64,000 nucleotides of DNA from Rosistilla carotiformis (lineage in GTDB: Bacteria > Planctomycetota > Planctomycetia > Pirellulales > Pirellulaceae), in assembly GCF_007753095.1 (NCBI RefSeq), contig NZ_CP036348.1, positions 5,991,411 through 6,055,410 of the forward strand. The letters are read 5' to 3'. The notes below the pieces were generated by a model, which did no database searches, had not been told where the DNA came from, and worked only from the letters and a program-made list of their open reading frames with translations. Below, piece by piece: positions 4,796-48,402 of the stretch; position 1 is the stretch's first letter; each line of letters begins with the position of its first letter. A program made the position numbers and the translations under genes.

Positions 4796-5197
4796 ATGTT
4801 TTCAGTGCTACTGACTGCTCTACTCTCGGTGGTTGCTTCTGAGGAAACAACCAATCCCAGCTACGCCAGCGCTTACCGGTGTGCACAAGAAGAGGGAAAG
4901 CCGTTGATGGTAGTCGTAGGTGCCGATTGGTGTCCCGCGTGTGTGAATCTCAAGCAAAGTACGATCGAATCGTTGAAGCAGGCGGGAGATTTGGAAGGTG
5001 TCGAAATGGCGATCGTCAATCGTGACGTGGAGCCTGGTTTAGCCGGAAAATTGATGCGCGGCCCGATGATGCCCCAGATCATTGTCTTTTCCAAAGGCAA
5101 TGCAGGATCATGGACTCGCGTTCAGTTGACTGGATTCCAAACCCGGGATTCGCTGAAGTCACTGATCAAAAGAGCGGTTCGCAACTCGGGAACCTAA
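4796..5197 (+). CDS. Secreted thioredoxin-like protein (WCPAC motif)
   Basis: 133 residues. The start ATG 4796 is preceded by GGGGGAA at a suitable distance. MFSVLLTALLSVVASE is a short signal peptide or membrane anchor. VVVGADWCPACVNLKQ carries a CxxC redox site (Cys-Pro-Ala-Cys) in the thioredoxin position, and RGPMMPQIIVFSK supplies the cis-proline strand (MP). The size and truncated N-terminal part match thioredoxin_7-type periplasmic proteins. The likely role is thiol-disulfide exchange or protection of exported proteins; the partner is unknown. A hairpin overlaps the stop codon, so the gene is probably monocistronic. Confidence 0.85.
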   Translation: MFSVLLTALLSVVASEETTNPSYASAYRCAQEEGKPLMVVVGADWCPACVNLKQSTIESLKQAGDLEGVEMAIVNRDVEPGLAGKLMRGPMMPQIIVFSKGNAGSWTRVQLTGFQTRDSLKSLIKRAVRNSGT

Positions 5198-30113: not shown

Positions 30114-31457
30114 ATGTTGCTTCTGAGAACCTTCCGACTGGGCGTCAAGAGTTTGATGCTGCATCCGCTCCGCAGCGGTCTGACGATGCTTGGCATCTTG
30201 ATCGGCGTCGCGGTCGTGATCGCGCTGACGGCGATCAGCAACGGTGCCAGTCGTGTAGTCCAGGAACAGATCGAGAGCCTTGGTGCGGACACGATCATCG
30301 TCCGCACCGTCAAGCCGCCAAGCGACGTCTTCGCCGGCCGCAGCGCGGTTCCTTACGGTCTGCAACGCGACGAACTGGAACTATTGATCGCCACCGTGCC
30401 GACGATTCGCAGCGCCCTGCCGATTCGTGAAATCAAACGCCAGTTCATGTACCAGGACCGGTCGATCGATGGCCGCTTGGTCGGCTGCACTCCCGAATAT
30501 GCCGAAGTCACGAAATTGGAACTGCAACCGGGCCCCGAGGGAGATTCAGGCCAATTCATCACCGACCTGAACAACGTCAAACGGGACAGCGTCTGCGTAT
30601 TGGCGGCCAAGGTGGCTGAAAAGCTGTTCCCATTTGAAAACCCGATCGGCAAGCGGATCTATCTTCCCGAGCACACCGATTTTTATCGTGTCGTCGGGGT
30701 GCTGAAGCACCGCACTGCATCGGCCGCGATCGGCGGCTCGCTCGATTCGCAGGACTTTTCCAGCGATGTCTACATCCCGCTGAAGACACTCGAACAGCGG
30801 ATCGGCGATACGATCGTGACCCGCGGCAGCGGCAGCTTTTCGATGGACATCGTCGAACTCAACCAGATCACCCTGAAGATCGATAAGGTTAGCAATGTGC
30901 GAACAACGGCCGCGTTTATCGAAGATCTGTTGGGGCCGCGGCATGCGGCTTTAAACGACATCTCGGTCGTCTTCCCACTCGAATTACTAGAACAAGCCGA
31001 GAACATGCGGCTGATGTTTATCGGCATCGGCGTCCTGATCGCCTTCATCTCGCTGTTCGTCGGCGGTATCGGGATCATGAACATCATGTTGGCCAGCGTC
31101 ACCGAACGGACGCGCGAGATCGGGATCCGCCGCGCCCTGGGGGCGAAGCGCGCCGATATCGTTTGGCAATTTCTCGTCGAAACAATCGTTCTCAGCTTCG
31201 TCGGATCGCTGCTTGGAATCGTCCTGGGGCTGCTGAGTCCTTGGATGTACGACGGCATGCGATTACTGGCCACCGAGTTCATCCCCGAGAAGCTCGCTGC
31301 GCTACCGGAGGCGATCCGTGAGGCGCGGCCACAAATCGTCCAGCTATCGATTCCGATTGCTGTGGTGATCGCGATGGGCGTCGGAATCCTCAGCGGCCTC
31401 TATCCCGCGATTCGCGCTGCTCGCATGAATCCGATCGAAGCATTGCGTCACGAATAA
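30114..31457 (+). CDS. MacB/FtsX-type ABC transporter permease
   Basis: 447 residues. One N-terminal membrane helix (LRSGLTMLGILIGVAVVIAL) is followed by a large periplasmic MacB_PCD domain (~55-290), then three C-terminal helices starting at IGIGVLIAFISLFVGGIGIM. The FtsX motif NIMLASVTERTREIGIRRAL and the closing GLYPAIRAARMNPIEALRHE are clear. This mechanotransmission-type permease works with the adaptor and ATPase upstream. An outer membrane channel gene is not in the window. It is the last gene of the exporter operon; the regulatory region of the sigma-factor gene begins directly after it. Confidence 0.94.
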   Translation: MLLLRTFRLGVKSLMLHPLRSGLTMLGILIGVAVVIALTAISNGASRVVQEQIESLGADTIIVRTVKPPSDVFAGRSAVPYGLQRDELELLIATVPTIRSALPIREIKRQFMYQDRSIDGRLVGCTPEYAEVTKLELQPGPEGDSGQFITDLNNVKRDSVCVLAAKVAEKLFPFENPIGKRIYLPEHTDFYRVVGVLKHRTASAAIGGSLDSQDFSSDVYIPLKTLEQRIGDTIVTRGSGSFSMDIVELNQITLKIDKVSNVRTTAAFIEDLLGPRHAALNDISVVFPLELLEQAENMRLMFIGIGVLIAFISLFVGGIGIMNIMLASVTERTREIGIRRALGAKRADIVWQFLVETIVLSFVGSLLGIVLGLLSPWMYDGMRLLATEFIPEKLAALPEAIREARPQIVQLSIPIAVVIAMGVGILSGLYPAIRAARMNPIEALRHE

Positions 31458-31563
31458 ACGCCGCGGCGAGGGCTGCCACTGGAATTCACCAGGTGAATCG
31501 GCGCAGGAACTGCGTCGGTTGCCCTCTCGATACAATAGAGACAGGCTAAAGGCATCCTAGGTG

Positions 31564-31615
31564 GCCAAATTGGCAGCGTGGTGGTGCAAATTGCGACAAC
31601 CTGGCGTCAAATTGA
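31564..31615. promoter_or_regulatory. Three CAAATTG dyads at exact 21-bp spacing (operator array)
   Basis: GCCAA-A-TTGGC (centre 31569), GCAA-A-TTGC (centre 31590) and TCAA-A-TTGA (centre 31611). The 7-mer CAAATTG begins at 31566, 31587 and 31608, two helical turns apart, so the three sites lie on one face of the DNA. The spacer sequences are not conserved, which argues for binding sites rather than a simple tandem duplication. Confidence 0.6.
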
Positions 31616-32032
31616 TACCACAGGACAGTTTTTACACGGCTTGGGGACAGGATACGAACAACTTACAAAGCTCCAAAGGTGGGTGACCGAAGCGGGCTAA
31701 AAAATTTAAGTCCTTTGTTTTCAGACACTTAGTCGAAATTGGACGGAAATTCATGAACGCTTTTATTCTGTTTGGCCTCTAATTTCCTAGTAAGGACCTG
31801 TGACTCGAAGCTTTCTGGAATGTGTGGTGTGGTTCACAACGGATCCCGCGTACTCATGATAGGATTCAAATTGTAGGGCAGACGCCCAAGATTGATTGAG
31901 TTGGAACGATGTACATGGACAACGGTATCCATTTATGAAATCAAGGTGTTGAAAAGAACTCAACACGTTTGGTTTTCGTAACATGGGTTGGTTGAGGGAC
32001 AAGGAGTCCGGAAGCCGCCGTCCGTGTTAACC

Positions 32033-32100
32033 CGCCTCGGGAAGAGGCGAATCCCGGGCCTAATTTTAGGCAGCAATGACGGAGCGACCCGCCGGGGTCG
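32033..32100 (+). promoter_or_regulatory. Three consecutive hairpins in the 5' leader of the sigma-factor gene
   Basis: CGCCTC-GGGAA-GAGGCG (32033-32049), GCCTAA-TT-TTAGGC (32058-32071) and CGACCC-GCCG-GGGTCG (32085-32100), ending 40 nt before the ATG. All stems are perfect. A folded leader, RNA switch or processing site is possible; it matches no riboswitch class I recognise. Confidence 0.5.
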
Positions 32101-32140
32101 TAGGGATGCCGTCGCTGTCGGTATACGGGGAATATGTGTG

Positions 32141-33802
32141 ATGCACGAAGACTATCGCGACCAAGCTGTCAAGGAACTGCGCGACCACCTACGTTTTGCT
32201 CCTCGCAGCAAAAAGTTGGAACAAGCCGCGCGTGCGGAGAAGTTGCTCTCGGAAATCGAGATCAACAAGGATTATCCTTATGATCTCGTCTGCTACCGCA
32301 TCACGGAATACCGCCCCGAGCAACCCTCGCGTCGATTGGTGCACGGCAAAGATATCCGTCACGACCTGCGTCTGTTCGTTGAAGACGTTTCGGACGCCGC
32401 CGATGTCAATGCCGACGAAGCGACCGAACCGGTCCACACCGTCGACGATCTCAGCAAGATGTTTAACGTCTCGACCAAGACGATCAGCCGTTGGCGTGAT
32501 CAGGGCTTGGTGAGCCGCCGCTTCGTGTTTGAAGGACGCAAGCGCGTCGGCTTTCTGCACAGCAGCGTCGAGCACTTTGTTGCCCGTAATAAGGATCGCG
32601 TCAAGCGAGGCGAACGCTTCAGCCAATTGAGCGAAGATGAGAAGGGGGAGATGATCGAACGCGCTCGCCAAATGGCGACTCGCGGTACCAGCCTGTCGGA
32701 AGTCACCCGCCGCTTGTCGGCGCGGATGAGCCGCAGTGCTGAAACGATCCGCTACACCCTGAAGAACTACGATGCCGAGAATCCCCAACTGGCGATCTTC
32801 CCAAATCATCGCGGTGCATTGACCGAAGATGACAAGCGAGCGATCTTCCAATTGGCCCGTCGCGGCACGACCGTCCCTCAATTGTGCAAGCGTTACGGCC
32901 GTACGCGTAGCAGCATCCAACGGATCCTCGTCGACATGCGAGCCGCTCGGATCATGGAACTGCCGTTGGACTACATGTACAACGAAGACTTCGAAAACGC
33001 GAAACTCGAACCAGAAATCCTCGGTGCAATGCCCGAACCAGAGAAAGCGCCGCGCAAGCTGCGTGTTCCCGCGGGACTGCCACCTTATCTGGCCAGCTTG
33101 TACGACGTGCCGCTGTTGGATCGCGAACAGGAATATTACCTGTTCCGTAAGATGAACTACCTCAAGCACAAAGCGAACAAGCTGCGCGAGCAACTGGTTC
33201 CCGGCAACGCCAAGGGTTCGCTGATGGACGAAATCGAAGCCCTTTACGAACAAGCGGTGCAGACCAAAAACAAGATCGTTCAATCGAACCTGCGTCTTGT
33301 CGTATCGATCGCGAAACGACACGTGGGATCGACCGACGACTTCTTCGGTCTGGTCAGCGACGGCAACATGTCGTTGATCCGCGCGGTCGAAAAGTTCGAT
33401 TACGCTCGTGGCAACAAGTTCAGCACGTACGCTAGCTGGTCGATCATGAAGAACTTCGCCCGCACGATTCCGGACGAATTCAAGCACCGCGATCGCTTCC
33501 GCACCACGGGTGAGGAACCGTTCCTGGCCGCTCAAGATGAACGTAAAGATCCCATCGCCGAAGAATCGGCGCATCAACGTCGCCAACGTCAGGTCAATCG
33601 AATCCTGAATCGCTTGGACGATCGCGAACAACGGATCATCAGCGCTCGCTTTGGATTGGGACGCCGTAATGAACCACAGACCTTGAAAGAGGTCGGCGAA
33701 GAGTTGGGCGTCACCAAAGAGCGGATTCGCCAGATCGAAGCCCGTGCGTTGTCGAAGCTGCGTGAAGCTGCCAACGCGGAAAAGATCGAAATCGATCTGT
33801 AG
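32141..33802 (+). CDS. Sigma-70 family RNA polymerase sigma factor with N-terminal HTH domains
   Basis: 553 residues from ATG 32141 (GGGGAA upstream); the in-frame extension to 31988 covers the hairpins and is rejected. Residues ~105-150 hold a MerR/excisionase-like helix-turn-helix (DDLSKMFNVSTKTISRWRDQ) and ~215-280 a second HTH (TVPQLCKRYGRTRSSIQRIL). Region 1.2-like sequence follows (LYDVPLLDREQEYYLFRKM), then region 2 (NLRLVVSIAKRHVG; GNMSLIRAVEKFDYARGNKF; STYASWSIMKNFAR) and region 4 (LKEVGEELGVTKERIRQIEA). Region 3 is largely missing. The domain order suggests a lineage-specific primary-like or group 2 sigma factor carrying its own DNA- or signal-reading domains. Confidence 0.9.
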   Translation: MHEDYRDQAVKELRDHLRFAPRSKKLEQAARAEKLLSEIEINKDYPYDLVCYRITEYRPEQPSRRLVHGKDIRHDLRLFVEDVSDAADVNADEATEPVHTVDDLSKMFNVSTKTISRWRDQGLVSRRFVFEGRKRVGFLHSSVEHFVARNKDRVKRGERFSQLSEDEKGEMIERARQMATRGTSLSEVTRRLSARMSRSAETIRYTLKNYDAENPQLAIFPNHRGALTEDDKRAIFQLARRGTTVPQLCKRYGRTRSSIQRILVDMRAARIMELPLDYMYNEDFENAKLEPEILGAMPEPEKAPRKLRVPAGLPPYLASLYDVPLLDREQEYYLFRKMNYLKHKANKLREQLVPGNAKGSLMDEIEALYEQAVQTKNKIVQSNLRLVVSIAKRHVGSTDDFFGLVSDGNMSLIRAVEKFDYARGNKFSTYASWSIMKNFARTIPDEFKHRDRFRTTGEEPFLAAQDERKDPIAEESAHQRRQRQVNRILNRLDDREQRIISARFGLGRRNEPQTLKEVGEELGVTKERIRQIEARALSKLREAANAEKIEIDL

Positions 33803-34944: not shown

Positions 34945-37900
34945 ATGCGATTGTTACACGCCCTCCAACGGTTTAACCAGGCGAAAGCTTGGGCACGCCA
35001 GCTGCTGCGAGTTCGGGGTGCCCAGCCGGTCCGCCCCCCTCTGCCGGTCCGGTTGCGTCGCGCGGCCCCCTTGAGCGTTGGAAGGCTTGAGAAACGGATC
35101 GTGTTGGACGCAGGGGGCGTCTTGTCGGCCATGGGGGAATTGGTGATCACCAGTGACGCCGCAGTCGCCAACGAAACGGTCACGATCGATTCGAATACCG
35201 ACGGCGAGCTTCAGATCACCCAGCTGGGGTCCCCTTTGGAAATCGTCGATCATCTCGGCGCACCGGTCACGTCGTTAGACACAGTGACTTCGATCGATGT
35301 TTCGCTCGGCGGTGGCCAGGATCATTTGGTCGTCGATTTCCACAATGCCCCCAACGACGCATCGCTTCCTTCGATCACCTACCATGGCGGTCCCAACAGT
35401 GATCCCGGCGAAGCGGCGTCGGATCGCTTGAGTCTGATCGGCGACGGCACGCAAACGGCCGTCTATTCATTGAACACGCTGCTGCCTGCCGAGGGATCGA
35501 TCACCGTAGGCGACCCGGCGCTGGGCAGCTCGACAATCACTTTCACGGGACTAAAGCCGATCGAAATCACGGGGATGTCGTCGACTTTGCTACAAGCTGG
35601 CGATTCGGGCGCCGGCGATTCTCCCACGGTCCGAATCACGGGCGAATTCGACCTCACCGCAAACGGGAGCGAAGCGGATTTGCAGATTCACAACGGGGCA
35701 AGCCTCTCGGGAACCGGAACCGTTCTCGCAGGCGACCGGACGGCCAGCGTGAATCTTCAATCCGGAAGCACACTCGCTCCCGGCGACAGTCCCGGATCGC
35801 TGACGGTTGCCAATCTAAACCTCTCCAGTGGTTCCACCTTTGCCGTCGAGATCGACGATCACGATGCCAACGATCCTTTGGCCGCATTGCCCGGCGGCAT
35901 TGCGGGCGTCGATTACGATCAAATGCGTGTGGAAGGGACGGTCACGATTGGCACCGACGTTCTGCTGAACCTCGAGGATTTGGGATCGACCGAAGCCAAC
36001 CCGCGCGACGTTTATACGATCATCGACAACGATGGCACCGATGCGGTCGTCGGTCGGTTTGTCGACACATCGAACGTCGTGTTGGAAAACGGCGGTACGG
36101 TGACCGCGGTGGGAGGTCTTCAGTACCGCATTGATTACAACGGCGGCGACGGTAACGACGTCACCTTGATCGGCATTCCGGCGACGCGGGCGGAGGTCTT
36201 CGTTTCCCACGACTTCACGCAATCACCCGGCAGCGTGATCGCCGACGTCGACTTTAACACCGCCGGCAACCAACCCGGGATTCTGGGAATCGATGCCTTC
36301 CCGACGTTGGAAGAAGCGATTCAAAGCGTCGACCTCGGTGGCACCGTTTACGTCGACGCGGGGACGTATGTCCACACCGGCACCTTGCGGATCGATCGCT
36401 CGGTCACGATCGAAGGCCAAGGGATGGGGCAGACCGAGCTTCGTAAAGCGGGTGCGCCGGCCGGCAATTACGACGAAGCGATTCGGATCACAGCCGACAA
36501 CGTCACGCTACGTGGGATGCAGTTGGGTTGGGTGGACTTCCTGGCCAACGATTACCAAGGCTACGTCGTGTTGACGCAAGCGGATCACACGACGATCCAC
36601 CAGGTTCAATTTGGCGAGTCGTTCGGTGGCAACCCGTTGGACGACGAAGGGTATCGCAGCGCGATCGTCTTCGAAACGGCAGACCACTTGGAAGTTTCGG
36701 ATTCCATTTTTGAAGGGCGTTGGGGCCGCGCTACGATCCGCGACGGCGCCGATGGCAGCGGCGAAAACTTCCTGATCACGCGCAACGAATTCCGCGAGGA
36801 CCATTTCCGTTGGGGACCGATCGCGATCGGGCCGCAGGGAACGTTTGGCGAACCGAACAACTTTGCCTTCAGCGGTGAGATCTCGTTCAACTACTTCGGC
36901 AACGGACTCGATCCTGTCGACTTCCAATCCAGCGGCGACCAAAACCATACGGTCACGATCACGAACCAGGGACTCACGCCCGACGGCCTCCTGATCGACC
37001 ACAACACGTTCGATTGGCGCGACACCGACACGCAAAACCAAAACGGCGTCCATGCGCAACCTGCGGGCGTTTACATCAATCCGGCGTTTACCAACCACAC
37101 CGATCAGATTCGGATCCAAGACAACATTTTTTATGGCTTTGCGTACGGCGGCCAACAGCCCGGCGAAGAGCAACCGACGTGGCAACCGGCAGCCGGTCGG
37201 TTCGATGGCGCAATCTACCTCGATGGCGACGGCGACTTTGGGCTCGTGCAAGACGATCGAATCGACATCGGCGATTCGGGCAGCTTTACGGTCTGGATCA
37301 ATCCCGATGTGCTTGGCAAGCGTCAGGAAATTGCCGGCGGAGCGGTCGAATTTCAGCTTCGTCACAGCAACGACCTCTACTTTTATCCCGGCAACTTAGG
37401 CGATGGCGATACGCTGGTCTGGAGCACCGACACGATTGCGGCCGACACCTGGACCCACCTCGCGTTCACCTGGGATCACGCATCACAGCAGGGCCATATT
37501 TACATCGACGGTGTCGAAGTTGCCTATCGTTCCGGTTACGATCCCGATGTGAGTCCTGATTGGACCGAAATCGTCGACACGATGCAGGCGATCTTTATCG
37601 GCCGTGATCCTGGGAACCCCGACGCACGCGATTTCCACGGCTCGATGGACGACCTAGCCTTCTTCGACGCAGTGCTCAGCCAAACGGAGGTCCAGAGTGT
37701 CATGACCGGCGGAGCGGCGACGTACGCTGCCGATGCCCGTATGATCGCCCATTGGGACTTCGATCAGACCAGTGGGAAGACGGCGATCGACAATCAACAA
37801 GGGATAGAGATGCGGCTGGTGACCGATGGGATCGTTCCCTTGGGTCCCGAATTTGTCGCCGGAGCAGGCCGGTTCGATGGTGCGTTGGCGTTCGATGGTG

Positions 37901-40900
37901 CCGACGATTTCGCCACGTTCCAAGATGCCACGTTCGATGTGGGATCCAGCGGCACGTTGAACTTCTGGGTCCAGATGGATGCCACCGATCGGCGAAACCA
38001 ATTTTTCGAAGGCCCCGAAAACGGTGGTTTCGAAATGCAGTATCGGACCAACGGCAGTGGTCAGGTCTACGGTCGCACGTCGACCAACGGCGACTACGTC
38101 ATTCGCAGTGGCGGCGATGCGGCGGTCTTGGATTCGGGTTGGCACAACATCCAGTACACCTGGGATTTCGCCACCAGCGAAATGCAAATTTATGTCGACG
38201 GTGTTGAATCGACGTATCTATCGAGTTACACGCCGGAAAATCTCAACTGGACCTCGGTCGCTGATACCGTCAATGGCTTGATGTTCATGGGCCGCGACGC
38301 CAGCAGCAGCGATCGGTTCTTCGATGGCATGATGGATGATGTCGCTTGGTACGACACCGCGTTGTCGACAGCCGAACGGGATGCCATCCGCGCCGCGGGA
38401 GTCAGCACGCACGCCAACCTCGTTGCCCACTGGGCTTTTGACCAAGCCCCCACGGCCGAGAACACCTACACCGGCGACAATGGCACGTCGATCGTGTTGT
38501 ATCTTCAGCAACTGCCTCCGGCACCGCCGATCCAGGGCAGCGGCGTGATCACACCAGCGGACGCGGTGGTTGTCAACAATGCCTTTTTCGCCAATGACGT
38601 CGATTCGAACCAGACGCTCGACGCCTCCAACATCACCGGCGACGATGCCAATCCGTTTGCCAACGGCGATCAAACCAACGCCACGGCGATCCCCCTCGCC
38701 GAATTCTATACACTTCGCTTTGGCTCTTCGGCCGCTTACCAATCGACTCAATTCCAGTCCGACATCGCCACAACACTGCCGCACATCGGTGCCTACCAAG
38801 GGGATCCGATCGCGGTGGGTGTGGAAGACATGTTGATCGTCGGCACCGATCAAGACGACATGTTGGTCGTCACCTTCGACGGTGAAGCCTCCGGAACCTT
38901 CGTACTGACGACGGGTATCGGCACGGCAGACGAAATCACGCTCGGACCGGTTTCCTTCAGCGACATCACCTCGATCACCTTCGACAGCTACGGCGGCGAC
39001 GACGTCTTGAAGATCGTCCAACCCGACAACGGCAGCATCGATGTCAGCGGGGGCATCTATTTCAATGCCGGTTCGCAAGCGAACGATGGAATCGGCAACG
39101 ACGCGATCCCAGGAATCGACGGCGACACGTTGATTCTCGAAGCTTCGCCCGCAATGACAACCATCGATAGCGTGCATTACTTCTTTGAAGATGAGGGCAC
39201 CGTCGGGCATGTCGGCTCGATCGTGATCACCGACGCGACCAACAACGGCGGTCTAGGGGGTTCAACCACGATTTATTACGACGGATTGGAACCGATCTTC
39301 GACAACCTGAACGTCGACGATCGTAGCTTCACATTCAATTCCTCTGCGGCAACAGAAACGATCACGTTGTCCAGTCCCGGCGACGCGGTCGGGCCGTTGC
39401 CCACACCGTTGGACAACAAGATCGTTTCCGACAATGGTGGTATCCCGCTCAGCGAAGTCGTCCACTTCAACAACCCCAACGTCTCGATGACGATCCACGG
39501 TGGCGATGGCAACCAAACGATCAATGTCGATTCGCTGGATTCCGACTACCGCGCTGCGCTCACAATCAACGGCGATGATGGCGGCACCGACGTCGTCAAC
39601 TTCAACAGCTCACTTGGAACGTTGTTGCTGGGCTCGGGAAGCGTCACCGGAACGCTGGCGGTGACCGCCGAAACGATCAACATCCACGCCGATGTCAGCA
39701 TCGACACCAGCGGTGGTGTCACTGATGGCGATGTTACGTTCGACGCCGTCGCGGGGATCGCGATGCACGACTCGTCGACGATCGCCGCGGGAGATGCCGA
39801 CATTCGCATGACCTCGCAAGGCGACATCGCGATCAGCCGAATCACTTCCGCCGAGACCGTCGCGCTGACGACCACGGCCGGTCGGATCATCGACAATCGC
39901 AGCTCCGACGAAGCTGCCAATATCACCGCCACCTCAGCCGCGCTGCGCGCCGAAACAGGAATCGGTTCGGGAACCGCTGCCGACGATGCGGATCTCGATC
40001 TCGATGTTTCCAACCTCGCGGCAGTTACCAACGCGGGCGATATCCATCTTCAAAATGCCAAAGAGCTATCCGTCGAGACAGTCGACGGGTTGTCGGGAAT
40101 CGCGGTTACCGATTCCCTGAACAACAACGCGTTGGGAAACATTACAATCCGCACCGCCGGAGCGTTTCAGATCGCCGCGGGTACTGGAGTGCTCAACGAC
40201 GACGGCGGCGATATCACGCTCGCAGCCGAAGGGACTTCCATCGGCGACAGTTTGACGATCGAAGCCGACGTGACTGCCGCAGGCGGATCGGGAAACATTT
40301 ACCTACTGGCTGGCGATTCGATCACAGTGGCTGTCGTTGCGATCACAGCGACGCAGGCCGGCGCGATCCTGCTCAAGTCGGGAACCGATTTCAACAATGG
40401 CAGCCCGCAGATCGGCAACGCGGCGGGGCTAATCGCTTTGACAGGTTCCGCTCACGTGCAGACCGATGCCGGGCACATCTCTTTGCTCTCCGCCGATTCG
40501 ATCGATTTAGGAAGCGACGTTCGGGTGCAAACCGCCGACTCGGGAACGATCGATCTCGATTCGTCCGTCGGCGAGATCTCCATGGATGCGACCGCGATCC
40601 TGGAATCGACCGATGGTGACATTCGAGTTTCCGCCCACGGCGACTTCACGATCGGCGATATCGTTGCCACCTCTGCCAACGTTTCACTGATCAGCGCCAC
40701 GGGATCGATCCTCGATGCCGACGCCAACGATTCGGATCTCGATGTCGTCGCGCAACGCCTGCGATTCAATGCCGCTGTCGGTTTTGGTGAACTGGGCACT
40801 GGAGCCAATGCCATCGAAACAAGTGTCGTCGTCGTCAGCGGCCGATCCACCAGCGGCGGGATCCATCTGATCGAGAGCGATGCAGTGACCGTGGGAGATG

Positions 40901-43900
40901 TCGACGCGATGGTCTACCGCGTTTCGGCAACCACAGTCCCCACCGCTATCGTCGATGGCTCGCAAGGCGATTTGGTGACGACAGCCGATAATGGCAGCAT
41001 CGTCCTGCGATCGATCGCTGGCGATATCACGCTGACCGATGGGACCGCCGCGGCAGACGGCAATGCAGTCGTCGCCCACGGCAATGGCAACGTCTTGATT
41101 TCAGCGGAAGGTTTGGACACCGATATCGTCGTCGACGCCGACGTTCGGTCCACTTCGGGCAATCTCAGTTTGATCGCCGCCCGCGACCTTCAGTTGGGTG
41201 GAAATGTCGACATTCAAACCGCTGGCGATGGCACCATCGATGTCGAAGCATCGACAGGATCGCTGGCGATGGACGCAACCGCAACGTTGCAATCGGTAGC
41301 GGGCGATATCCGAGGACTCGCAAACAACGACTTGACGATCGGCGACATCTTCGCCACCGATGCCAACGTTTCGTTGACCGCTCGCACCGGATCGATCCTC
41401 GACGCCGATGGTGATGACGCCGACAGCGACGTCACGGCACAAGGGCTTCGCCTTAACGCGGGGAACGCAGTCGGAACTTTGGGCGCCAGCAGCAACGCAA
41501 TCGAAACAAGCGTTGGCGTCGTCACGGCGCGCGCCGCCGCTGGCGGAATCAACCTATTGGAATCCGACGCAGTCACCGTCGGCGATGTCGCGATCACCGT
41601 CAACCGCGTTGCCTCCGACGGGTCGGTCGTCGTAGTCGAAGACGCGGCACAAAGCGACTTGGTGACGACAGCCGATAACGGAAGCATCGTCCTGCGATCG
41701 CTCGCTGGCGACATCACGCTAACCGACGGTAACGCCGCGACAGACGGCAATGCGGTCGTCGCCCATGGAAGCGGCAACGTCTTCATTGCAGCGGAAGGCA
41801 TCGACACCGACATCGTTGCCGACGCGGACGTTCGTTCCACCTCCGGCAACCTCAGTTTGATCGCCGCTGGCGACCTCCAACTCAACACGAATGTCGACGT
41901 TCAAACGGGAACCGATGGGACGATCGATGTCGAAGCGACGACCGGATCGCTGGCGATGAATTCTACCGCAACGCTGCAATCGGATGCGGGCGACATTCGA
42001 GGATTTGCGAACAACGATTTGACGATCGGCGACATCGTCGCCACCGATGCCAACGTTTCGCTGACCGCGATCGACGGATCGATCCTCGACGCCGATCCTG
42101 ATGACGCCGACATCGACGTCACGGCAGAAGGGCTTCGCCTAAACGCGGCCAACGGAATCGGAACTTTGGGCGCCAGCAGCAACGCGATCGAAACAAGCGT
42201 TGGCGTCGTCACAGCGCGCGCCGCCGCGGGCGGAATCAACCTATTGGAATCCGACGCAGTCACCGTCGTCGATGTCGCGATCACCGTCAAACGTGTCACC
42301 TCCGACACGTCGGTCGTCGAAGTTATCGACGCGGCACAAAGCGACTTGGTGACGACAGCCGATAACGGAAGCATCGTCCTGCGGTCGCTCGCCGGCGACA
42401 TCACGCTGACCAATGGGACCGCTGCGGCAGACGGCAATGCGGTCGTCGCCCATGGAAGCGGCAACGTCTTGATATCAGCCGAAGGCATCGACACCGACAT
42501 CGTCGCCGACGCGGACATTCGTTCGACCTCTGGCAACCTCAGTTTAATTGCCGCCGGCGACCTAAAGCTGAACGCAGATGTCGATGTTCAAACAGGAACC
42601 GATGGCACCATCGACGTCGAAGCATCGACCGGATCGTTGGCGATGGACGCAACCGCAACGTTGCAATCGGTTACGGGCGATATCCGAGGACTCGCAAACA
42701 ACGACTTGACGATCGGCGACATCTTCGCCACCGATGCCAACGTTTCGCTGACCGCTCGCACCGGATCGATCCTCGACGCCGATCCCGTTGACGCCGACAT
42801 CGACGTCACCGCAGAAGGCCTTCGCCTAAACGCAGGGAACGCAGTCGGAACTTTGGGCGCCAGCAGCAACGCGATCGAAACAAGCGTTGGCGTCGTCACG
42901 GCGCGCGCCGCCGCTGGCGGAATCAATTTATTGGAAACCGACGCAGTCACCGTCGGCGACGTCGCGATCACCGTCAACCGCGTCACCTCCGACGCGTCGG
43001 TCGTCGAAGTCATCGACGCGGCACAAAACGACTTGGTGACGACAGCCGATAATGGCAGCATCGTCCTGCGGTCGCTCGCCGGCGATATCACTCTGACCGA
43101 TGGGACCGCTGCGGCAGACGGCAATGCGGTCGTCGCCGATGGCAGCGGCAACGTCTTGCTGCAGACGATTTCAACGACGGCAGACATCGTCATCGACGCC
43201 AGCGTCCGCAGCGAAAGCGGCCACGTGAGCATCAACGCAGCGGACGACATCCATCAGAATGCCGATCTGATGACCGGCGGCGAAGGGACCATCTCGCTAA
43301 CGGCCTCCAATTCAAACGATGATGGTGTCGGCAACGATGGAATCGTGATGCGTTCGGACGCGCAAACAGTTTCCGGAGGTGGAAACATCCGCTTGCAAGC
43401 CGCTGGTGAAAGCGACCTGTTCCTGGGCCTAATCGATGCCGGAACCGGAGACGTTTCGTTGCTCGCCGAACGCGACGTGCTGGATAACAATGGGTCAACG
43501 TTGGGCAATGTTCGGGGCGATGCATTGCGAATCGTTGCCGATGCCAACGGGAACCAAACGGGGACGATCGGAACCTCCGATACCGGCAACTCCATTGAAA
43601 GCAACGACCACGCGATTCAAACCGCCGTGACAACGCTAGCCGCTGTCGCTGCCGACGGCATCTACATTCTTGAATCCGACGCGATCGCGATCGACCACAC
43701 GACCGACATTTCGGTCCAACAGGTGGGCGCCGACGCGACGGTGACCACGATCACCGATGCCAGCCTTTCAGATCTTGAAACGACCGATGCCGGCCCCATC
43801 AAATTGAAGACGCTGGCCGGAACGATCACGATCAACGAAGGGGATGCCGACGACAACGGTCTCCATGCCGCGGGCCTCGGCGACGTGTTGCTCGCCGCCG

Positions 43901-46900
43901 GTGGCGACGCTTCGGATGTCGTGATCAACGCGGACGTTGCGAGCGATTCGGGCAACGTGAGCCTTTCCGCCGCGGACGACATCGCGTTGGCCGCCGATCT
44001 TTCCACCGGGGGCGAGGGGACGGTGTGGAGCCAAGCGGGCAATGCGTTCGCCGAAACGCCAGCCGTCGATGGCTTCCACATGCTAGTGGGCTCAACGATC
44101 ACCAGCGGTGCCGATATCGCCATCGAAACGCTGGGCGAAAGCGATCTTGTCGTCCAAGCGATCGACGCGGGAACCGACGCGGTCCGTTTGTCGGCTGCCG
44201 GGAACATCATCGATGGCAACGGAGCGACACTCAACATCACCGCCGGCTCGGTCATGTTGATCGCCGACGCGAACTCCGACGGCGAGGGAAGCATCGGATC
44301 GCCCGATCCATCGAGCCTGCCAAGCGACAACTTGAAAGCGATCGACATCGCGGCCCAACGCGTTGCCGCACGCAGCGCCGATGGAATCTACCTGCATCAG
44401 ACCGCGGGCGATCTGACTGTCGACACGGTCTCCGTCGATGTAAATCGCGTGCATTTCAATTCGACCACGTCCGAAGATTCGCAAACGCTAGCCGATTTGG
44501 AGACAACCGATTCCGGTTCGATCAAAGTTGTCGCGTCCGATGGCGATCTAACACTCGACGATGGTGACGACGACGGGATCGCAGTGAGTGCAGCGGGGGG
44601 CGGCGACGTCCTGTTGGACGCACGCGGGTCGGGGAACCTGAACATCAATGGATCGGTCTTCAGCGGAAGCGGCCAGATCGGCTTGCAAGCTCAAGAGTCC
44701 ATCGAACTGGCAAACGATGTCACAGTGCAGACCGGCGGCGACGGGACGATTGCGATCGACGCGAGCCTTTCGGCGGGAACCAGCGGCGCGATCGCGATGG
44801 CTGCCGAAGCCCGCGTGCAAACGGTAAACGGCGATATCCATATCGCTGCCGACCAAACGATTTCAGTCGGCCGCATCGAGACGCTTGCCAACGTGAGTAT
44901 CACCAGCATCGCCGGATCGATCGTCGACACCGACATGGATGACGCGGCAATCGACGTCACGGCAGCGGGCTTGCGAATGAACGCGTTGAACGGCGTAGGC
45001 ATGCTGGGAGCGACGGCCAACGGACTGGAGACCCAAGTTGCGACGCTGAGTGCGCGTGCGGGAAACGGTGGCGTCCACGTGATCGAAGCCGATGGCCTGC
45101 GTATCGATGATGTCGCGGTCCAGGTGCAGCGTCCCGAGTTCCGGTCGACGCAAACGACGGTCAACGACCTCGCGCAAAGCGACCTCCGCACGACCGATGA
45201 CGGCAGTATCGTGCTGCGGTCGCTCGCCGGAGAGATCACGCTCAACGAAGGAACGGCATCTGCGGGAGACGGCGCGATCCAAGCCGATGGGATCGGGAAC
45301 GTTCTGATCGCGGCCGAAGGCCTCGGTTCGCAGATCAACGCCAACGCAAATATTGTCAGCGGCGTTGGCAATATCAGTCTGATCGCCGCCGATTCGATTG
45401 CAGTCGCCGCTGGCGTGAACGTTACCACAGCGGCCAACGGCACGATCGATCTCGAAGCGACTGCGGGGGCGTTGACGATGGCGGCAACTGCCACACTGCA
45501 AACCGAGGCAGGCGATATCCGCGCGGCGGCGGGAGCCGATCTGACGATTGGCGATATCGTCGCGACCGACGCCGACGTCTCGCTGATCAGCACCGGCGGA
45601 TCGATTCTGGACGCGGATCCCGACGATGCGGATGTCGATGTGACAGCCAACCGCTTGCGTTTGGCTGCGGCCATTGGCGTTGGAACGGCAACCAATGCAA
45701 TCGAGACCGATGTCGATACGCTCAGCGGCCGCGCGACCTCCGGCGGGATCCAGTTGCTCGAGACCGATAGCATCGCGATCGACGATGTCGAGGTGACGGT
45801 GCAGCGGGTCGGGAACGATGCATCCTCGACGGATCGAACCGATGCGTTGCAGAGCGATCTGCGCACAACCGATGGCGACGGTTCGATCGCATTGCAAACG
45901 ATCGATGGCAGCATCACGCTCAACGAAGGGACCGCAGCCTCCGGCGACGGGGCGATCTCCGCCGACGGATCGGGGAATGTTCAGATCGACGCAAATGGCG
46001 CCGACAGCGATCTGATCGCTGGCGCCGACATCGCCAGTGGCAGCGGAGCCATCGTGATCGATGCGTCCCGCAACATTCTGCTGAACGCTTTCGTCGACGT
46101 GACGACAGCCGGTGCCGGAACGATCGATCTGACGGCGACCACGGGCAACCTGACGATGGCTCCAACAGCGACGCTGCAATCGGTGGCCGGAAACATCACC
46201 GGGACAGCAGAGCAAGACGTCACGATCGGCGACATCACATCGACGATGGCCAATGTGATCCTGACTTCACAATCATCGCAAATCATCGACGCCGATCCGG
46301 CGGGCGATTCCGACCAAGACATCGCGGCGGTCGAAGCGATCCTAACGGCTCCGCTAGGCATCGGCGTTGGAAATGCGATCGAAACCTCGGTCGACGTCTT
46401 GGAGGCCGAAGCGACGACATCCGGGACGATCGAAATCGTGGAATCCGATGCAATTGAATTGCGTCGGGTGATCACAGGAGACGGTCGCATCGCGGTCACC
46501 GCGGGTGGAACGATCACAGCGACCGAGGTGCAGTCGACCAACACAAGCTCCTCCGATGCAGCGATTGGACAGGCCGACAGTCGCGACATCGCGTTGGTCG
46601 CCAATGGTGCGGCGAGTAGCATTTTGGTCACGAAGATTACCGCAGCGGCGGGGGCCGATGTGCACCTGACCGCCGACAATGACATCCTAGATACCGACAT
46701 CGATGATGACAATTTGATCTTCGCCGACGACCTGCATTTGATCGCGGGGAATCAGAGCGATGATGGCGACAACGCGGTTCAACTGACAACAACGATCAAC
46801 GACCTGCAAGCCGAAGTCAGTGGCAGCGGCCGCGGCGATCTAGAGATCCTCGAGACCGATGCATTGAACTTGGTGACCAGCGATGAAGCGACCGACGCCG

Positions 46901-48402
46901 ATATGTTGCGAACCAGCAACGGTGAAATTCGCGTGTCCGCTGGCGGATCGATCGTGCTGGCAGATCCCGACCTCAGCAACGACGGCGGCGACCGGACTGC
47001 CGATCCCGAGATCGTCGCTGGGGGCGACAATGGACGGATCCTGTTGCAGACCGACGCCGACCTCACCATCGACGAAGGAGTTCAAATCCACGCGTCGCAA
47101 TCGACGGCCGGCGCGGTGAGGATCGCCGCTGTCGGAGAGATCCTGCTAGGCGAACAGATCGAAATCAACACCGGCGCCAGCACCGGTGTGGCTCGCGTCT
47201 TTGCACCGCGTCCCGAGGAAGGCGTGACCGACACGGCGTTCTACGATTACGATACCGTCACGACGACGATACTCGCATCGGAACCGGGAGGTTTCGGCGG
47301 CGATCTGACGATCGACGTGGGAACGGCCGGCGAACGCGGGCTGGCGATCGAAATCGATTGGGGTGCGGAAAGCAATCGGTTCCAGGTCGTCGACGGGATC
47401 GATGGCGAATCGATGACGACCGTCCATCACACGTACACCGAAGCGGAAATTTTGACGACCACGCTCAACGGTCGATCTTCCTCGACCAATCCCGTGGAAG
47501 TTCGTTTTACCGTTCGTCAACACGAATCGATCGTATTGGAAGGCGCGTCGATCGAACAGGGAATATCGGGAGCCCAGATCGTCGATGGCGGCCTCGTTTC
47601 TTCGACGGACAATCCGCAGACCAGCCCGTTGTTAGAAAATGGCGAAGCGCAGTTCACGGTTCCCAACTTGTCGATTCCAACCCGGCTGTTCTTTCCACCG
47701 CCGGAGTATCCTGAGTTGGTGCGTCGCCTCAGTGAAGCGTACGCCGAAACATCGACTCTGTTGACGACGACTTTGACATCCACCGAGACCTCGTCGGTCA
47801 CCACCACCACCTCACGCGATGAATACTTTCAAATCCGTGTGATCTCTCCCGATCCCAATATTGAATCGGAAGTCCCGCCCGAGCGCCTGCCCGACGACAT
47901 CCTTTCGGGCGACAAACTGCAAACGTTGTTTGCCAACTTGCCCGATGGGACCTACGAGATCGAATACGTGTTGGGAGAAGGGAACGCACGGTCGATCTTG
48001 CGCGTGGAGATCCGCCAAGGCAAGCCGATCATTCCGGGAGAGGATTTGGAGGGAGGCCTCCTGAAGCTGAAAGAACTGGATTTGGATTTGTTGCAGGAGC
48101 CTGCTCTGCCGATTCAACAGCAGCCCGACGATTTTGAATCGACCGACGCGACGTCCTCGGTCGATGCGGCGGAGTTCACCTTGGTCGATCCCAGCAAGCC
48201 AGAGCACGTTATCCCACAAGTTCATGCCGAGACACCCGAAAGGCTGGATGGATGGCAAGATGCCGTGACGACCGAAAACGATGAAGGCGTGACCTTGGCA
48301 ACGGGAAGCGTATTGCTGGGGTTGTTGGCCAAGAAACAACAACGTCCCCGCGGCGGCGAATACAGCCTGACGAGGCGCATTGTGCGTCGCTTTGCCAAAT
48401 AA
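34945..48402 (+). CDS. Giant LEPR-XLL-type, LamG- and repeat-containing surface protein (4485 aa)
   Basis: The N-terminus has an Arg-rich lead and LEKRIVLDA at 48-56, a variant of the planctomycete LEPR-XLL export motif. Domains by position: a PATR-like autotransporter stretch (~245-310, TLAPGDSPGSLTV), a right-handed beta-helix region (~450-745), two LamG/concanavalin-like domains (~751-930 and ~975-1165), Asp/Gly-rich strands, then seven or more related ~228-residue units from ~1840 to ~3900 (clear unit starts at residues 1908, 2137, 2366, 2595, 3312, 3540, 3766). A Thr/Glu-rich C-terminal region ends in a short hydrophobic stretch plus basic tail (TGSVLLGLLAKKQQ...RRFAK). The composition is acidic, which suggests calcium binding. 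The likely role is adhesion or a cell-surface fibre. The kinase gene starts 48 bp downstream. Confidence 0.9.
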   Translation: MRLLHALQRFNQAKAWARQLLRVRGAQPVRPPLPVRLRRAAPLSVGRLEKRIVLDAGGVLSAMGELVITSDAAVANETVTIDSNTDGELQITQLGSPLEIVDHLGAPVTSLDTVTSIDVSLGGGQDHLVVDFHNAPNDASLPSITYHGGPNSDPGEAASDRLSLIGDGTQTAVYSLNTLLPAEGSITVGDPALGSSTITFTGLKPIEITGMSSTLLQAGDSGAGDSPTVRITGEFDLTANGSEADLQIHNGASLSGTGTVLAGDRTASVNLQSGSTLAPGDSPGSLTVANLNLSSGSTFAVEIDDHDANDPLAALPGGIAGVDYDQMRVEGTVTIGTDVLLNLEDLGSTEANPRDVYTIIDNDGTDAVVGRFVDTSNVVLENGGTVTAVGGLQYRIDYNGGDGNDVTLIGIPATRAEVFVSHDFTQSPGSVIADVDFNTAGNQPGILGIDAFPTLEEAIQSVDLGGTVYVDAGTYVHTGTLRIDRSVTIEGQGMGQTELRKAGAPAGNYDEAIRITADNVTLRGMQLGWVDFLANDYQGYVVLTQADHTTIHQVQFGESFGGNPLDDEGYRSAIVFETADHLEVSDSIFEGRWGRATIRDGADGSGENFLITRNEFREDHFRWGPIAIGPQGTFGEPNNFAFSGEISFNYFGNGLDPVDFQSSGDQNHTVTITNQGLTPDGLLIDHNTFDWRDTDTQNQNGVHAQPAGVYINPAFTNHTDQIRIQDNIFYGFAYGGQQPGEEQPTWQPAAGRFDGAIYLDGDGDFGLVQDDRIDIGDSGSFTVWINPDVLGKRQEIAGGAVEFQLRHSNDLYFYPGNLGDGDTLVWSTDTIAADTWTHLAFTWDHASQQGHIYIDGVEVAYRSGYDPDVSPDWTEIVDTMQAIFIGRDPGNPDARDFHGSMDDLAFFDAVLSQTEVQSVMTGGAATYAADARMIAHWDFDQTSGKTAIDNQQGIEMRLVTDGIVPLGPEFVAGAGRFDGALAFDGADDFATFQDATFDVGSSGTLNFWVQMDATDRRNQFFEGPENGGFEMQYRTNGSGQVYGRTSTNGDYVIRSGGDAAVLDSGWHNIQYTWDFATSEMQIYVDGVESTYLSSYTPENLNWTSVADTVNGLMFMGRDASSSDRFFDGMMDDVAWYDTALSTAERDAIRAAGVSTHANLVAHWAFDQAPTAENTYTGDNGTSIVLYLQQLPPAPPIQGSGVITPADAVVVNNAFFANDVDSNQTLDASNITGDDANPFANGDQTNATAIPLAEFYTLRFGSSAAYQSTQFQSDIATTLPHIGAYQGDPIAVGVEDMLIVGTDQDDMLVVTFDGEASGTFVLTTGIGTADEITLGPVSFSDITSITFDSYGGDDVLKIVQPDNGSIDVSGGIYFNAGSQANDGIGNDAIPGIDGDTLILEASPAMTTIDSVHYFFEDEGTVGHVGSIVITDATNNGGLGGSTTIYYDGLEPIFDNLNVDDRSFTFNSSAATETITLSSPGDAVGPLPTPLDNKIVSDNGGIPLSEVVHFNNPNVSMTIHGGDGNQTINVDSLDSDYRAALTINGDDGGTDVVNFNSSLGTLLLGSGSVTGTLAVTAETINIHADVSIDTSGGVTDGDVTFDAVAGIAMHDSSTIAAGDADIRMTSQGDIAISRITSAETVALTTTAGRIIDNRSSDEAANITATSAALRAETGIGSGTAADDADLDLDVSNLAAVTNAGDIHLQNAKELSVETVDGLSGIAVTDSLNNNALGNITIRTAGAFQIAAGTGVLNDDGGDITLAAEGTSIGDSLTIEADVTAAGGSGNIYLLAGDSITVAVVAITATQAGAILLKSGTDFNNGSPQIGNAAGLIALTGSAHVQTDAGHISLLSADSIDLGSDVRVQTADSGTIDLDSSVGEISMDATAILESTDGDIRVSAHGDFTIGDIVATSANVSLISATGSILDADANDSDLDVVAQRLRFNAAVGFGELGTGANAIETSVVVVSGRSTSGGIHLIESDAVTVGDVDAMVYRVSATTVPTAIVDGSQGDLVTTADNGSIVLRSIAGDITLTDGTAAADGNAVVAHGNGNVLISAEGLDTDIVVDADVRSTSGNLSLIAARDLQLGGNVDIQTAGDGTIDVEASTGSLAMDATATLQSVAGDIRGLANNDLTIGDIFATDANVSLTARTGSILDADGDDADSDVTAQGLRLNAGNAVGTLGASSNAIETSVGVVTARAAAGGINLLESDAVTVGDVAITVNRVASDGSVVVVEDAAQSDLVTTADNGSIVLRSLAGDITLTDGNAATDGNAVVAHGSGNVFIAAEGIDTDIVADADVRSTSGNLSLIAAGDLQLNTNVDVQTGTDGTIDVEATTGSLAMNSTATLQSDAGDIRGFANNDLTIGDIVATDANVSLTAIDGSILDADPDDADIDVTAEGLRLNAANGIGTLGASSNAIETSVGVVTARAAAGGINLLESDAVTVVDVAITVKRVTSDTSVVEVIDAAQSDLVTTADNGSIVLRSLAGDITLTNGTAAADGNAVVAHGSGNVLISAEGIDTDIVADADIRSTSGNLSLIAAGDLKLNADVDVQTGTDGTIDVEASTGSLAMDATATLQSVTGDIRGLANNDLTIGDIFATDANVSLTARTGSILDADPVDADIDVTAEGLRLNAGNAVGTLGASSNAIETSVGVVTARAAAGGINLLETDAVTVGDVAITVNRVTSDASVVEVIDAAQNDLVTTADNGSIVLRSLAGDITLTDGTAAADGNAVVADGSGNVLLQTISTTADIVIDASVRSESGHVSINAADDIHQNADLMTGGEGTISLTASNSNDDGVGNDGIVMRSDAQTVSGGGNIRLQAAGESDLFLGLIDAGTGDVSLLAERDVLDNNGSTLGNVRGDALRIVADANGNQTGTIGTSDTGNSIESNDHAIQTAVTTLAAVAADGIYILESDAIAIDHTTDISVQQVGADATVTTITDASLSDLETTDAGPIKLKTLAGTITINEGDADDNGLHAAGLGDVLLAAGGDASDVVINADVASDSGNVSLSAADDIALAADLSTGGEGTVWSQAGNAFAETPAVDGFHMLVGSTITSGADIAIETLGESDLVVQAIDAGTDAVRLSAAGNIIDGNGATLNITAGSVMLIADANSDGEGSIGSPDPSSLPSDNLKAIDIAAQRVAARSADGIYLHQTAGDLTVDTVSVDVNRVHFNSTTSEDSQTLADLETTDSGSIKVVASDGDLTLDDGDDDGIAVSAAGGGDVLLDARGSGNLNINGSVFSGSGQIGLQAQESIELANDVTVQTGGDGTIAIDASLSAGTSGAIAMAAEARVQTVNGDIHIAADQTISVGRIETLANVSITSIAGSIVDTDMDDAAIDVTAAGLRMNALNGVGMLGATANGLETQVATLSARAGNGGVHVIEADGLRIDDVAVQVQRPEFRSTQTTVNDLAQSDLRTTDDGSIVLRSLAGEITLNEGTASAGDGAIQADGIGNVLIAAEGLGSQINANANIVSGVGNISLIAADSIAVAAGVNVTTAANGTIDLEATAGALTMAATATLQTEAGDIRAAAGADLTIGDIVATDADVSLISTGGSILDADPDDADVDVTANRLRLAAAIGVGTATNAIETDVDTLSGRATSGGIQLLETDSIAIDDVEVTVQRVGNDASSTDRTDALQSDLRTTDGDGSIALQTIDGSITLNEGTAASGDGAISADGSGNVQIDANGADSDLIAGADIASGSGAIVIDASRNILLNAFVDVTTAGAGTIDLTATTGNLTMAPTATLQSVAGNITGTAEQDVTIGDITSTMANVILTSQSSQIIDADPAGDSDQDIAAVEAILTAPLGIGVGNAIETSVDVLEAEATTSGTIEIVESDAIELRRVITGDGRIAVTAGGTITATEVQSTNTSSSDAAIGQADSRDIALVANGAASSILVTKITAAAGADVHLTADNDILDTDIDDDNLIFADDLHLIAGNQSDDGDNAVQLTTTINDLQAEVSGSGRGDLEILETDALNLVTSDEATDADMLRTSNGEIRVSAGGSIVLADPDLSNDGGDRTADPEIVAGGDNGRILLQTDADLTIDEGVQIHASQSTAGAVRIAAVGEILLGEQIEINTGASTGVARVFAPRPEEGVTDTAFYDYDTVTTTILASEPGGFGGDLTIDVGTAGERGLAIEIDWGAESNRFQVVDGIDGESMTTVHHTYTEAEILTTTLNGRSSSTNPVEVRFTVRQHESIVLEGASIEQGISGAQIVDGGLVSSTDNPQTSPLLENGEAQFTVPNLSIPTRLFFPPPEYPELVRRLSEAYAETSTLLTTTLTSTETSSVTTTTSRDEYFQIRVISPDPNIESEVPPERLPDDILSGDKLQTLFANLPDGTYEIEYVLGEGNARSILRVEIRQGKPIIPGEDLEGGLLKLKELDLDLLQEPALPIQQQPDDFESTDATSSVDAAEFTLVDPSKPEHVIPQVHAETPERLDGWQDAVTTENDEGVTLATGSVLLGLLAKKQQRPRGGEYSLTRRIVRRFAK
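40453..43160 (+). repeat. In-frame tandem coding repeat, exact 687-bp period (about 4 units)
   Basis: The landmark encoding A-T-D/S-A-N-V-S-L begins at 40666, 41353, 42040 and 42727, so the period is exactly 687 bp (229 codons) each time. The units starting at 41353 and 42727 share F-A-T-D, T-A-R-T-G and N-A-G-N-A-V, while the unit at 42040 differs (V-A-T-D, T-A-I-D-G, N-A-A-N-G-I). More diverged copies at 44878, 45562 and 46240 are 684 and 678 bp apart. Confidence 0.9.

Follow-up and report, generated by a model that had tools for sequence, protein, structure and literature searches.

Three copies of CAAATTG, each within a short dyad and 21 bp apart, lie upstream of a sigma-70-family sigma-factor gene of Rosistilla carotiformis, and sequence comparison indicates that they form a genus-level operator array. 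With slightly less than even confidence, we favour the reading that this array is a distal operator of the sigma gene, most likely bound by an activator and acting on a promoter further downstream. The window analysed here is a 64-kb stretch of the R. carotiformis genome, and all coordinates refer to it.

The CAAATTG array

The exact strings start at 31566, 31587 and 31608, precisely where an earlier note on this DNA had placed them, and the 21-bp spacing occurs twice as it had claimed. Its statement that each 7-mer sits in a short dyad is borne out as well, with arms of 5, 4 and 4 bp for sites 1, 2 and 3; counted as matching pairs out of 9 across a 19-bp dyad, the scores are 6, 6 and 7. Site 1 (CAAATTG, 31566..31572, plus strand) lies in the dyad GCCAA-A-TTGGC, site 2 (31581..31599, plus strand) is a 19-bp dyad around the CAAATTG at 31587, and site 3 (31602..31620, plus strand) is the 19-bp dyad TGGCGTCAA-A-TTGATACCA. 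Scores of at least 7 are reached at 0.21% of window positions and scores of at least 8 at 0.02%. Between sites 2 and 3 stands a half-turn intermediate, CAACCTG (31597..31603, plus strand), and the three together are phased at 10-11 bp. A fourth CAAATTG, at 31867, does not share the register; the two congeners that were compared have CAATCTG in its place.

The earlier note had judged three phased copies very unlikely to arise by chance, and this holds for the arrangement, which is rare, but not for the 7-mer itself, which is common (11 occurrences in the window against 10.8 expected). The array is the sole equally spaced 7-mer triple in the window (spacing 8-30), with none in 60 simulated windows, and nowhere else in the window do three odd dyads, each with arms of 4 bp or more, share one spacing of 15-35 bp. 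When 20000 sequences of 700 bp were simulated with a Markov model of the local composition, 2 contained a triple of this kind, which puts the chance at about 1 in 10000 per 700 bp, dyads uncounted; for a reader scanning 64 kb it rises to roughly 1 in 100, small but not vanishingly so.

In 277 kb of other DNA there were 24 triple positions, and the 20 of them listed all fell within three tandem repeats. A scan of the whole R. carotiformis genome (7.44 Mb) for CAAATTG-N14-CAAATTG gave three occurrences, two of them in the array, hence one other pair and no other triple. With the looser CAAAYTG-N14-CAAAYTG, five such pairs were found within a tandem repeat elsewhere in one congener, G001. This 21-bp repeat (G001:C1:5452971-5453124, L043-L047) carries CAAACTG in its units at an unrelated place, and it shows that 21-bp phased copies have other possible origins.

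Conservation within and beyond the genus

The genus comparison comprises three genomes, namely that of R. carotiformis and those of the congeners G001 and G002. The 21-bp register is kept in all three, and site 2 alone is invariant. The cores read CAAACTG, CAAATTG and CAATTTG in G001 and CAAACTG, CAAATTG and CAAATTG in G002; threefold exact identity is thus confined to R. carotiformis among the three. The site 3 core of G001 is the reverse complement of CAAATTG, and the dyad is preserved. Indeed, the congener dyads are stronger than those of the window at site 2 (7/9 versus 6/9) and site 3 (8/9 versus 7/9), while that of site 1 is weaker (5 pairs versus 6).

Sites 2 and 3, followed by GGACAGTTTTTACA, form a conserved block (31580..31636, plus strand) in which 52 of 57 columns are identical in the three genomes, compared with 381 of 499 for 31502-32000. 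Core columns were kept in 19 of 21 cases and spacer columns in 22 of 28 (n = 3 genomes), so that the cores are not clearly slower. Moreover, the intergenic region 31502-32140 is conserved throughout (512 of 639 columns), and for this reason the kept spacing is by itself weak evidence.

No array was detected in other genera: a BLAST search of 31495-31720 against 60 genomes gave strong matches in the three genus genomes only, which is why we regard the array as genus-level. Weak, short matches occurred in 36 other genomes, the best of them (G022, E = 0.001) covering 24 bases just outside the array. A weak excess of CAAATTG was seen at orthologues of the sigma gene, where 12 of 58 regions together carry 17 sites, the window's four included, and shuffles give 8.6. 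Comparison of the upstream regions of relatives, as the earlier note had proposed, gives a divided answer, the register being kept in 3/3 genomes of the genus and the array not being found outside it. Within the genus, the combination that the note had named as fatal, lack of conservation in close relatives together with equally frequent triplets elsewhere, was not what we observed.

That the arrangement arose by chance, in intergenic DNA that is conserved overall, and binds no protein would fit the conservation of the whole of 31502-32140, the altered cores at two of the three sites in a congener, and the absence of the array past the genus. We consider it rather improbable, given the frequency of about 1 in 10000 obtained even before the dyads are considered and the location of sites 2 and 3 within the better conserved part. 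The array is probably functional within its genus.

Both congeners carry CAAACTG midway between sites 2 and 3, where the window has CAACCTG, which gives a 10-11 bp phase. Their series CAAACTG, CAAATTG, CAAACTG and CAA(A/T)TTG is thus spaced by 21, 10 and 11 bp. OmpR/PhoB-type regulators read direct repeats, and a response regulator of this type could be bound to 10-11 bp direct repeats here, the palindromes being a by-product of YTGnnnC-AAA units. The phased repeats of the congeners do resemble PhoB/OmpR boxes; the strong dyad symmetry of sites 2 and 3, 7/9 and 8/9 in the congeners, sets the array apart from them and is needless for direct repeats, and the window has only a degenerate form of the intermediate copy. 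We hold this alternative to be unlikely.

DNA curvature was also considered as a feature of the region and was raised moderately only. By predictions from wedge values, the bend of the 80-bp segment from 31550 ranks at the 96th percentile for the window and at the 97th and 99th in the congeners. An intrinsic bend from helically phased A-tracts, without a dedicated protein, could account for such values, but segments starting at 31560-31580 range from the 28th to the 73rd percentile, several other places in the window bend more, and the A-tracts are just 3 bp long; this is the most improbable of the explanations considered.

Genome-wide searches for the dyads were not usefully above control, and the idea of a dyad regulon was dropped. 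In the three whole genomes, a search for the 19-bp site 3 dyad that allowed up to 3 mismatches found a single additional place, as did its reversed control, and the 18-bp site 2 pattern gave 27 further places (26 with 3 mismatches) against 23 for the reversed control. With no second genomic site above control, there is no regulon that could hint at the regulator.

The sigma factor and its DNA-binding domains

The gene downstream of the array (32141..33802, plus strand) encodes a sigma-70-family sigma factor of 553 aa with a conserved start, MHEDYR, and at least two N-terminal HTH domains. The product has sigma regions 2 and 4 as well as MerR/HTH_17-like and HTH_23-like domains. Homologues with E below 1e-100 are present in 59 of the 60 genomes searched, R. 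carotiformis included, and the best match in the sixtieth (G035, 72% complete) is 8e-15. The closest named relatives are those of Roseimaritima sediminicola (72% identity) and Rhodopirellula maiorica (70%). The upstream neighbour, a MacB/FtsX-type permease gene (30114..31457, plus strand), is retained in G001; it is not kept in G002, whose similarity to the window reaches no further upstream than about 31502.

In the part of PMC2754498 available to us, RB12251 of Rhodopirellula baltica is described as a specialized sigma factor of 567 aa, and it is apparently tabulated among the genes that heat, cold and salt repress. Judged by length alone, it may be the orthologue of the 32141 gene. Our literature search, with most subscription journals outside its coverage, returned no title on this sigma gene or its leader. 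A cluster of tRNA genes lies downstream of the sigma ORF in seven of the eight scanned relatives in which the locus was long enough (L010, L011, L012, L013, L017, L029 and L033). The window has no tRNA behind the sigma gene, its two tRNAs being at 5161 and 23750. The stretch 34945-48402 is one ORF of 4485 aa, in whose translation long internal repeats are visible by eye.

The position of the array upstream of a gene whose product has MerR/HTH_17-like and HTH_23-like domains had led to the proposal that these domains bind it, so that the sigma factor would control its own gene. In 11 aligned relatives, HTH1 is 67-84% identical and HTH3 51-76%, and the HTH1 motif VSTKTI-RWR is kept in 11/11. Eight of these 11 relatives were included in the 60-genome BLAST search, and all eight are without the array; the sites are thus not kept wherever the DNA-binding domains are. 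If those domains read the operator, it should have persisted alongside them; since the array did not, autoregulation is unsupported. The searches for further genomic sites, which remained at control level, also speak against it, and we regard an autoregulatory operator as very unlikely. Of the view in the earlier note that this is a cooperative operator array, the operator part is the best reading, with dyads two helical turns apart, a register kept in the genus and rarity in the genome; the part that invoked the sigma factor's own HTH domains is not retained.

Promoters upstream of the sigma gene

The sigma-54 (-24/-12) consensus used is GG-N10-GC with TTGGCACG-N4-TTGCW. A match was counted when at least 10 of 13 consensus positions agreed, with GG-N10-GC, between -480 and -60. 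Counts of promoters, motifs and GGA hairpins at orthologues refer to 57 to 60 of 63 regions, with the near-duplicates L034/L035, the distant L038 and, depending on the analysis, one or both of the two congeners left out beforehand.

Sigma-54-type sites were found in 19 of 60 orthologue regions, compared with a mean of 2.0 and a largest value of 6 in 100 dinucleotide-shuffled sets, and in 0 of 60 on the reverse strand. The correct spacer gave 19 regions and twelve wrong spacers gave 0-5; window slices of the same length gave about 2 per 60, and coding slices 1 of 96. Examples lie at -265 (L017), -366 (L021), -291 (L022) and -334 (L077) from the start codon. None of the three genomes of the window's genus is among the 19. 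The rpoN gene is present in 57 of 60 genomes, and that of R. carotiformis matches PF04552 with an E value of 4.7e-62.

In the genus, a -24/-12-like block, TTTGGCCTCTAATTTCCTA, lies at 31771..31789 (plus strand), with an inferred start at about 31799, and is common to L007, L034, L008, L035 and L014. The three genus genomes have TTTGGCCTCTAATTTCCTA itself or one base off; matches to the L008 form number 16-19 of 19 among the sequences that share the block, the next best being 14. The block reads GG-N10-CC in the genus and in L007, L034, L008 and L035 and GG-N10-TC in L014, i.e. C or T at -13, and it fails the strict sigma-54 consensus.

A second candidate, a distal sigma-54 promoter at 31498..31514 (plus strand; inferred start at about 31525), has GG-N10-GC in all three genus genomes, with 8, 9 and 10 of 13 consensus matches; the 8/13 of the window is weak. 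The three-way conservation of the genus begins at about this candidate. Between -700 and -480, sigma-54-like sites with at least 10 matches and the right spacer occur in 9 of 57 orthologues, one of these regions being that of congener G001, against 0-5 with wrong spacers. A TACAAT box at 31531 lies within TACAATA, which is identical in the three genomes.

If transcription began from one of these distal elements, the array would lie 40-90 bp downstream of the start of the 31498 site or of the TACAAT box, and it could be a repressor operator, or an operator for a regulator of the distal promoter, at which the bound array blocks elongation or opening. The over-representation of distal sites at orthologues, the conserved GG-N10-GC and the invariant TACAATA favour such an arrangement. 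On the other hand, the match in the window is weak, and more orthologues (15/57) have a site nearer to the gene, at -480 to -200. We consider this version unlikely.

An ECF-type promoter, GAAC-N17-CGTA (31956..31980, plus strand), is kept in all three genus genomes. At orthologues, GAAC-N17-CGT[AC] occurs on the plus strand in 24 of 58 regions and on the minus strand in 0 of 58, other spacers giving 0-4. A scan of 31440-32160 gave one sigma-70-type promoter against 0.8 expected and three terminator-like sites against 0.7 expected. In orthologues, a further promoter-like motif, GCGAACTTT, is seen about 28 bp before CGTA (L032 -295, L074 -307, L078 -311). A GTCTC-N5-GAGAC dyad stands some 170-220 bp upstream of the -24 block (L008 -585, L014 -490, L026 -515); it was found in 3 of 58 regions against 0.02 expected, and may be another activator site. 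A small coding gene was also looked for in the conserved intergenic region and rejected, as inspection of the three genomes by eye revealed no shared ORF with conserved ends.

The leader RNA and its possible link to CsrA

In orthologues, an RNA element with an outer stem, an inner hairpin of about 5 bp and a 3' bulge, ANGGAACA, lies right before the start codon of the sigma gene. A covariance model, R1, built on 8 seed sequences that were picked for showing the element clearly, matched 25 of 63 loci, every one directly before the start codon; 17 of the 25 were not seeds, and L010, L011, L022, L029 and L064 are among the loci that bear the element. Across the 25 loci, 13 of 15 pairs changed on both sides and 89.6% of cells pair. 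The covariation score was 0.519, with neither control near it (0.200 for shuffles, 0.04-0.11 for slid partners), although it is biased in favour of the structure, to which the 25-locus alignment was fitted. When 60 whole genomes were searched with a second model, R2, built on these 25 loci, 23 strong matches (E up to 9.1e-5) were obtained, each of which was a training locus; 7 further matches, at other places, were weak. Since its strong matches are its own training sequences, the R2 search adds only that no strong second copy of the element was found in the 60 genomes, its filters losing weak matches.

An anchor within the element was recognised in 44 of the 63 loci, and the CGCANGGA columns of the resulting alignment follow from this anchor by construction. 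When folded alone, 31 of these 44 elements leave the GGA of the bulge unpaired and 13 do not; their mean z-score is -1.52, compared with -0.03 for 43 control segments.

The corresponding leader element of the window (32069..32119, plus strand) has an outer stem, an inner hairpin and a 3' bulge, AGGGA (32102-32106). It folds to the same architecture as the covarying element with other stem bases, an assignment made by folding only, and it was unmatched by R1 and R2; R1 had no match in the R. carotiformis genome or G002, and one at a weak, unrelated place in G001. The whole window leader by itself has a z-score of -1.49, which is not significant. Folding also places two hairpins upstream, GGAC-AAGGA-GTCC (31997..32009, plus strand), whose AAGGA loop is seen by eye with other stems in L007, L034, L008, L035 and L014, and CGCCUC-GGGAA-GAGGCG (32033..32049, plus strand). 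An Rfam scan of 31400-32300 gave no match at E up to 1, and the 35 matches in ten relatives were tRNAs and seven below the gathering score, none of them on the leader element. It is possible that this leader RNA represents a class of regulatory RNA not described before.

Hairpins with GGA in the loop are more frequent near the start codon than expected by chance, with 44 in 58 leaders (34 leaders having at least one) against 12.0 ± 3.8 in shuffles, while further upstream they number 9 against 8.5 (57 regions) and on the reverse strand 5 against 5.2. The window leader presents GGA motifs in the loops of both hairpins and in the bulge. Matches to csrA are present in 60 of 60 genomes, 3 to 14 in each and 7 in R. 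carotiformis. From these features we infer that the leader could be read by CsrA. It resembles the CsrA/RsmA-controlled leaders described in the portion of PMC7652899 consulted in having GGA in hairpin loops, with csrA in all genomes, and differs from them in being a covarying two-stem element before one gene. According to the accessible part of PMC12316311, csrA is enriched among predicted sigma-54 targets in Planctomycetia, and so, in general terms, are sigma-factor COGs; the sigma gene studied here is not mentioned in that part.

Discussion

In the mechanism that we favour, a candidate dimeric DNA-binding protein would bind the 19-bp dyads, sites 2 and 3 acting as a strong conserved pair and site 1 as a weaker site. 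With dyad centres 21 bp apart, the dimers would lie on one face of the helix, and their binding can thus be cooperative. Once occupied, the array would most likely stimulate transcription of the sigma gene at one of the promoters that follow it; of these, the sigma-54-like block at 31771 is the best candidate, although the choice is uncertain. Protein binding, the activator role and the promoter served are all points that we infer.

Enhancers of sigma-54 activators can lie at about -190 to -230, and the array centres fall at about -230, -209 and -188 from the inferred start of the 31771 block. NtrC-type activators use such enhancer (UAS) arrays at sigma-54 promoters. The likeness extends to the helically phased tandem dyads some 190-230 bp upstream of a -24/-12-like inferred start, to the presence of rpoN and to the enrichment of sigma-54-type promoters at orthologues; the array is upstream only if the 31771 or the 31956 promoter is the one served. 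Unlike NtrC-type arrays, the dyad sequence is not tied to a known activator site, and the -12 part of the block is TTTCC. Against this reading stand the limitation of the array to the genus while sigma-54-type promoters occur across the order, the C at -13 of the 31771 block, contrary to the sigma-54 consensus, together with the absence of the three genus genomes from the 19 sigma-54 matches, and the 31498 candidate, which with the correct GG-N10-GC would leave the array downstream of its start. The cores that are not clearly slower than their spacers, the lack of a second genomic site above control and the phased repeat of G001 count against it as well.

An RpoN-to-RpoS sigma cascade is known in Borrelia. 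Here too, a sigma-70-family sigma gene is apparently transcribed by sigma-54 in many orthologues; it is a different sigma factor, with N-terminal HTH domains, and an ECF-type promoter and an RNA leader come in addition.

Taken by itself, the array would be an ordinary operator array at a regulatory gene, and its value lies in hinting at a new regulator of a widely conserved sigma factor. The surrounding region matters more, the leader RNA and the promoters being the more surprising part. It is possible, though we would put this clearly below an even chance, that a multi-layer switch acts on this one sigma factor, conserved in this order of planctomycetes. Outermost would be the array, as a distal operator or enhancer, and a sigma-54-type start, then a start of the ECF type, and just ahead of the start codon a cis-regulatory RNA of a new family, with the ANGGAACA bulge, which one of several CsrA proteins would read. 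If this is true, sigma-54 and CsrA would both feed one sigma factor. Comparison of sequences is enough to show, upstream of one sigma gene, two recognisable types of promoter at many orthologues together with a leader RNA that covaries, and this makes a planctomycete regulatory hierarchy directly testable.
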